From Methanoregula sp. (GTDB lineage: Archaea; Halobacteriota; Methanomicrobia; Methanomicrobiales; Methanospirillaceae), in contig JAJRBZ010000058.1 in NCBI GenBank assembly GCA_028679185.1, forward strand, positions 28,620-92,619: a stretch of DNA of 64,000 nt. Direction: 5' to 3'. Each line of letters begins with the position of its first letter. Position 1 is the stretch's first letter. Shown here piece by piece: positions 40,313 to 40,917 of this stretch. The notes under the pieces were generated by a model. That model did not search any database, was not told the DNA's origin, and worked only from the letters and a program-made list of their open reading frames with translations. The position numbers and the translations under genes were made by a program.

Positions 40313-40578
40313 GGCAAGATTCTCTCCTTTTTCCTTTAAGAGCCAGTCTGGTTCCAGCCAAAGACCTTCTCATAAACGGAGTTTTAATTTCAGCCATTGA
40401 AGTGTCTCCTGCTGTATGCGGAATGCTGGTGAAGAATGGTTGCCGGGTGAATTTATTATAATTCCTCTCTGTTTTTTCATTCGGGGAGTCTTGCAATTAA
40501 AAGATCAGTAATTCAGATCAGCAATACATATGTTAATCGTCCCGGACACCATTTATATACCCCTACGGAGTTGTGTGA

Positions 40579-40917
40579 ATTAGGAATAATAACAATGGAA
40601 ATAATGATGGTATTGACCCTAATGCCGTAAATGCAGATGGGACTCCCGTTGTCCGATTGCGGTTACCCAAGAAATGGGCCAATGAACAATTCGCTTTTGC
40701 TGACCTGATGATGGGCGCAAATCATATTCGCGTCCGGTGCTATGATGGGATCACCCGCATGGGCCGGATTAAGGGTAAGATCAAAAAGCGTGTCTGGATT
40801 CGAGAAGGGGATATCCTGATAGTCACCCCCTGGAGTTTCCAGGATGAAAAGTGTGATATCATTTACCGCTATCTTCCCCCTCAGGCAGACTGGTTAAGAA
40901 AAAACCGGTACTTGTAA
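40579..40917 (+). CDS. translation initiation factor aIF-1A (start codon uncertain)
   Basis: VRLRLPKKWANEQFAFADLMMGANHIRVRCYDGITRMGRIKGKIKKRVWIREGDILIVTPW; upstream frame opens right after TGA at 40576-40578 and has no in-frame ATG. Confidence 0.88.
   Translation: MRNNNNGNNDGIDPNAVNADGTPVVRLRLPKKWANEQFAFADLMMGANHIRVRCYDGITRMGRIKGKIKKRVWIREGDILIVTPWSFQDEKCDIIYRYLPPQADWLRKNRYL

Follow-up and report, generated by a model that had tools for sequence, protein, structure and literature searches.

Near-cognate start codons of the initiation factor gene aIF1A in Methanoregula and other euryarchaea, and their possible role in feedback

The stretch of Methanoregula sp. DNA analysed here (the window, 64,000 nucleotides in length) carries a gene for translation initiation factor aIF1A whose reading frame opens directly after a stop codon and does not contain an ATG ahead of its conserved core. 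The locus raises the question of which codon starts the synthesis of this factor, and whether a poor start could serve in its regulation. The infC gene of Escherichia coli uses an AUU start codon for autoregulation, and an earlier note on this DNA had proposed AUU initiation and an analogous feedback for the archaeal gene. The features of the region are as follows.

40522 to 40543, + strand: conserved upstream box CAATACATATGTTAATCGTCCC (family form CAATACATACCTTCATCGT) in the MAFFT alignment of 35 orthologs; putative promoter element
40552 to 40559, + strand: TATA-like, AT-rich tttatata; several orthologs (L041, L019, L036) lack it or have a degenerate form
40567 to 40573, + strand: Shine-Dalgarno (SD) sequence GGAGTTG (GGAGGTG with one mismatch), its first G 12 nt before the start
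40576 to 40578, + strand: in-frame stop TGA, adjoining the start and ruling out any in-frame start further upstream
40579 to 40581, + strand: predicted near-cognate start codon ATT, from sequence and ortholog comparison
40582 to 40650, + strand: coding N-terminal linker RNNNNGNNDGIDPNAVNADGTPV, Asn-rich, with synonymous-biased divergence between near relatives
40595 to 40630, + strand: out-of-frame ATG mini-ORF, not conserved
40651 to 40917, + strand: aIF1A OB-fold core and C-terminus, with TAA at 40915 to 40917; over the cut-offs of TIGR00523 and PF01176, dN/dS 0.01-0.06

Read from the ATT, the ORF spans positions 40579 to 40917 of the + strand and comprises 112 residues. The frame is closed by the TGA and, as had been described, the only start-like codons up to the start of the core are ATT at 40579-40581, ATT at 40612 and TTG at 40657, the first of these having GGAG (40567-40570) 8 nt upstream. 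TTG-40657 is the next in-frame ATG, GTG or TTG after the TGA and lies two residues into the OB-fold core. It was rejected as a start codon, being inside the core and replaced by GTT, GTC or GTA in many orthologs. An out-of-frame ATG had also been pointed out: its peptide, MEIMMVLTLMP followed by a stop, was given correctly, but the codon is located at 40595 rather than 40594. This mini-ORF was dropped as a functional candidate for lack of conservation.

The identity of the product as aIF-1A was confirmed by profile searches (TIGR00523, 120.4 bits against a cut-off of 102.9; PF01176, 72.7 against 30.2), and the closest solved structure is aIF1A of M. jannaschii (1jt8, E 4.8e-30). The OB-fold core is intact and under strong purifying selection. 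Differences in the linker between closely related pairs fall almost entirely at synonymous sites, which indicates that the linker is translated. As no ATG, GTG or TTG precedes the core, a start outside this set is therefore forced. The linker and its orthologs are rich in Asn, Asp and Lys and highly variable in length and sequence, with partial conservation only at the motif NAVNxDGTP.

Orthologous starts were compared among the 35 nearest orthologs (Methanoregula and kin), which were picked by core identity alone and aligned with MAFFT. None of these begins with ATG: the codon is ATT in 32, ATC in two and ATA in one. Upstream, 29 orthologs with gap-free anchoring show little or no variation in the GGAG and TTG of the SD, while flanking positions mostly hold less than 1 bit; as this set had been prefiltered on ATT or ATC, its invariant ATT carries no weight, and the argument rests on the unfiltered 35. 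The start ATT is not conserved in the manner of an ordinary Ile codon, because synonymous sites of the core are near saturation and its Ile codons are mostly ATC (182, against 66 ATT and 32 ATA); comparison with this usage gave p ~1e-17, the sequences not being independent.

The survey was extended to 60 loci fetched from the order, 40 from the rest of the phylum and further loci returned by searches, all within a single phylum, leaving 169 distinct non-haloarchaeal euryarchaeal aIF1A loci after removal of duplicates. When the start was placed at the best SD with the choice made among start-like codons, 150 of the 169 were non-ATG (ATT 63, CTG 60, ATG 19, TTG 13, ATC 8, ATA 6, GTG 0); the unbiased figure is that of codon-blind placement, by SD register only, which found ATG or a one-base neighbour in 72% of the loci versus 11-25% at other offsets or frames. 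The register from SD to start is 12 nt in 141 of the 169, with many of the remainder at 13 or 14 nt from the first SD position. An in-frame stop is found no more than three codons upstream of the start in 40 of 137 non-canonical loci. Furthermore, in 54 of the order's 114 non-canonical loci the first canonical codon comes no earlier than core residue 8 and is mostly Met20, inside the OB fold.

The CTG form occurs in Methanoculleus-like and Methanocorpusculum-like families, in Methanocella, in second copies of Methanosarcinaceae and in Archaeoglobus-like and Thermococcus-like genomes, and TTG in first copies of Methanosarcina and some others; many of these lineage names are our tentative assignments. 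In families where the sole copy starts with CTG (L180-L183, L023), the non-AUG gene is therefore the cell's only aIF1A. A tree of the core, built from few columns and with many forks unresolved, requires at least 17 start-codon changes, only three of them to or from ATG. Near-cognate codons are exchanged among themselves while ATG is avoided, a pattern that is hard to explain by drift. Judged from these comparisons, ATG is almost never the start of aIF1A in methanogens and their relatives; weak codons, ATT or CTG for example, take its place at a constant spacing from the SD. Among the Methanolinea loci (L112-L119, L122, L125), the ATT is spaced 14 nt from the SD in place of 12 nt, and a conserved stretch peculiar to these loci, CACGGGGATGA...TGTTCCCAGTGGAGTTGC, lies upstream, unlike the Methanoregula form.

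The other genes tested in the relatives do not share this feature. The start codon is ATG in 28 of 28 for aIF1 and 25 of 25 for aIF2-beta, and ATG or GTG in 27 of 27 for uS11 (26 ATG and one GTG); across the phylum, 30 aIF2-beta genes gave 26 ATG, three TTG and one ambiguous placement. The genome under study contains 31 sites of the form GGAGKTG-N5-ATH/CTG, and at just one of them, that of aIF1A, does an ORF of more than 110 codons with a closed upstream frame begin; this exact pattern misses variant SDs, the CTG paralog having one of them. The idea that such starts form a genome-wide class was considered and rejected, with 23 SD+ATH sites against 19 for the reversed-pattern control; beside aIF1A, L323 and L333 are weaker cases. 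Among the genes tested, the predicted near-cognate start is specific to aIF1A. The earlier proposal of AUU initiation is strongly supported by the comparison: the note had named ATG at this position in relatives as a refutation, and the relatives carry ATT, ATC, ATA or CTG instead. We regard a near-cognate start codon for aIF1A as highly probable.

The mechanism that fits best is near-cognate initiation serving an autoregulation like that of infC or eIF1. From the ORF, the conserved near-cognate start, the SD register, the purifying selection and the ATG of other initiation-factor genes, we infer that initiation takes place at the AUU at 40579, which would be read with Met-tRNAi by a ribosome placed by the GGAGUUG SD. 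In non-haloarchaeal euryarchaea, selection would retain a poor start (AUU, AUC, AUA, CUG or UUG) behind a good SD. Both aIF1A and aIF1 belong to the 30S apparatus for start-codon checking. When abundant, aIF1A would cause near-cognate initiation to be rejected and its own synthesis to fall; when scarce, stringency would drop and synthesis rise. Under this proposal, output falls as the factor accumulates because initiation at AUU or CUG succeeds in proportion to the laxity of start selection; both the dependence on the level of aIF1A and aIF1 and the sign of the feedback are presumed.

The analogy to infC that had been drawn for this locus fits, in that an initiation-factor gene carries a near-cognate start that is deeply conserved and not general to other genes; the feedback itself is a proposal. 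Archaeal aIF1 has been described as promoting the rejection of non-canonical start codons (PMC6237735; PMC8211752). Codon discrimination has been published for aIF1 and not clearly for aIF1A, which counts against feedback, as does the ordinary ATG of aIF1 in these organisms, aIF1 being functionally closer to IF3 and eIF1 than aIF1A is. Haloarchaea use ATG, and the ATG paralogs of Methanoregulaceae, with their weak SD, look like simple tuning of output. Taken by itself, start-codon feedback on aIF1A is evenly balanced between being right and wrong. For the reading as a whole, namely aIF1A made from AUU-40579 behind GGAGUUG, with the poor start kept by selection and likely for feedback, the balance tips slightly in favour.

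The main rival to this reading is a constitutively low dosage, in which the poor start only sets a low output and does not respond to anything. On this view, pairing ATG with a weak SD, as the second Methanoregulaceae copy does, achieves the same. The genome under study holds three copies of aIF1A, that described here (ATT, GGAGTTGTG), one on C97 (ATG, GAAGTTGGT) and one on C99 (CTG, GGAGAGGTT), and the same trio is present in other Methanoregula genomes. In the tree, the ATG copies, all of them second Methanoregulaceae copies, fall together in a poorly resolved group (L031, L068, L076, L079-L087, L132-L141), and their SD is degraded: the 4-nt core GGAG is kept in none of 19 ATG loci versus 109 of 115 others, an association that is largely confined to one clade, so that the loci behind its p-value are not independent. 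Different members carry A, T or C in place of the second G of GGAG (GAAG, GTAG, GCAG), and output seems to be capped there too, as if ATG together with a good SD were not tolerated in this paralog. Loss of the SD would be an easy route to low output, yet single-copy taxa keep a good SD and a near-cognate start, and one would expect the demand for an initiation factor to be high. Low dosage is a serious but clearly less probable explanation than selection for feedback.

The same architecture would react to any shift in initiation stringency, and the non-AUG start could sense something other than aIF1A, such as the supply of aIF2/Met-tRNAi, Mg2+, temperature or aIF1. A near-cognate start that is responsive to the growth medium has been published for a bacterium (PMC13009471). 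The leader offers no specific feature for such sensing: RNA structure around the aIF1A start gave no signal beyond shuffled sequences, and no upstream ORF is conserved. We consider this reading improbable. An upstream ORF of 18 codons does exist at 40530-40583 (+ strand, ATG TTA ATC ... AAT TAG; MLIVPDTIYIPLRSCVN followed by a stop), its TAG at 40581-40583 overlapping the ATT start. L002 and L033 share this open frame. Its ATG is confined to boxes of the ATATGTTAAT form, whereas ATACCTTCAT, found in most orthologs, leaves no such ORF, and the ORF was rejected as a conserved element.

A leaderless transcript from the TATA-like element, with its 5' end near 40580 and the ATT either irrelevant or a leaderless start, had been raised as a complication for the SD. 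The tttatata is present at 40552-40559 as reported, its spacing to 40580 is about right for an archaeal TATA box and transcription start, and haloarchaeal aIF1A looks leaderless. Leaderless mRNAs have no SD before the start and no need of one, whereas here GGAGTTG is conserved 12 nt upstream as the best-conserved upstream element, with GGAG invariant in the 29 anchored orthologs. The AT-rich tract near -25 is weaker than the CAATACATACCTTCATCGT box, which the alignment places at about -60 to -38, and Methanoculleus-like loci have a TATA-like sequence about 60 nt upstream of the CTG. The box CAATACATATGTTAATCGTCCC is probably the promoter element, and the SD would then lie in a short leader of about 30 nt. 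Since the SD is invariant, a leader starting between the box and the AT-rich tract is more likely than a leaderless transcript, for which the chance appears very small. In the six haloarchaeal loci (L219-L224), the orthologous gene differs in having ATG without an SD and is probably leaderless; this lineage seems to have abandoned the near-cognate design when it shifted to leaderless mRNAs. Finally, an assembly error, a decayed gene or a true start farther upstream can be practically dismissed: the genome is a draft of 104 contigs with two further aIF1A copies, but the same ATT in dozens of independent assemblies rules out a lone sequencing error, the core dN/dS is that of a constrained gene, and stops close the frame just upstream both here and in the 40 loci mentioned.

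The favoured reading, a poor start retained for feedback, has parallels in the other two domains. Like bacterial infC (IF3, AUU or AUA), aIF1A is an initiation-factor gene with a good SD and a near-cognate start that is widely conserved phylogenetically. Unlike infC, it encodes the ortholog of IF1 and not an IF3 analogue, CUG is as common as AUU, and its autoregulation is proposed here from sequence comparison. In Staphylococcus aureus, infC starts with AUA and is among the non-canonical starts with an extended SD seen there, which gave about 10% of AUG output in reporters (PMC13009471). The AUU of cvfC1 and the AUA of ccpN and citZ in S. aureus are likewise conserved non-canonical starts with a strong SD and reduced output; these are metabolic or virulence genes of a bacterium, without initiation-factor feedback (PMC13009471). 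Eukaryotic eIF1 limits itself through an AUG in poor context, as do eIF5 and BZW1/2 (PMC5823381). As with eIF1, a start-selection factor would limit its own synthesis through a suboptimal start site; aIF1A differs in being the ortholog of eIF1A and in using a non-AUG codon behind an SD, not a poor Kozak AUG reached by scanning.

The literature searched, mostly without subscription papers and preprints, contained no report of a non-AUG start in archaeal aIF1A. Regulation of an initiation factor through its own start codon is already known as such, and its occurrence on archaeal aIF1A would be a novel case. The archaeal circuit may date back to an ancestor of much of Euryarchaeota and have arisen separately from those of bacterial infC and eukaryotic eIF1, a suggestion that we make tentatively and with slightly more doubt than belief. 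Gene finders limited to ATG, GTG and TTG are bound to give aIF1A a wrong start or a shortened form in many euryarchaea, and archaeal initiation at AUU or CUG would be more than a laboratory curiosity. The genetic systems of Thermococcus and Methanosarcina make the prediction directly testable. If it is true, a start-selection factor regulated by its own poor start codon would be known from all three domains, in archaea on a different factor, the ortholog of IF1 and eIF1A. This would amount to an archaeal homeostatic circuit for start-codon stringency comparable to those of infC and eIF1, and would suggest that stringency is set by aIF1A too and not by aIF1 alone.
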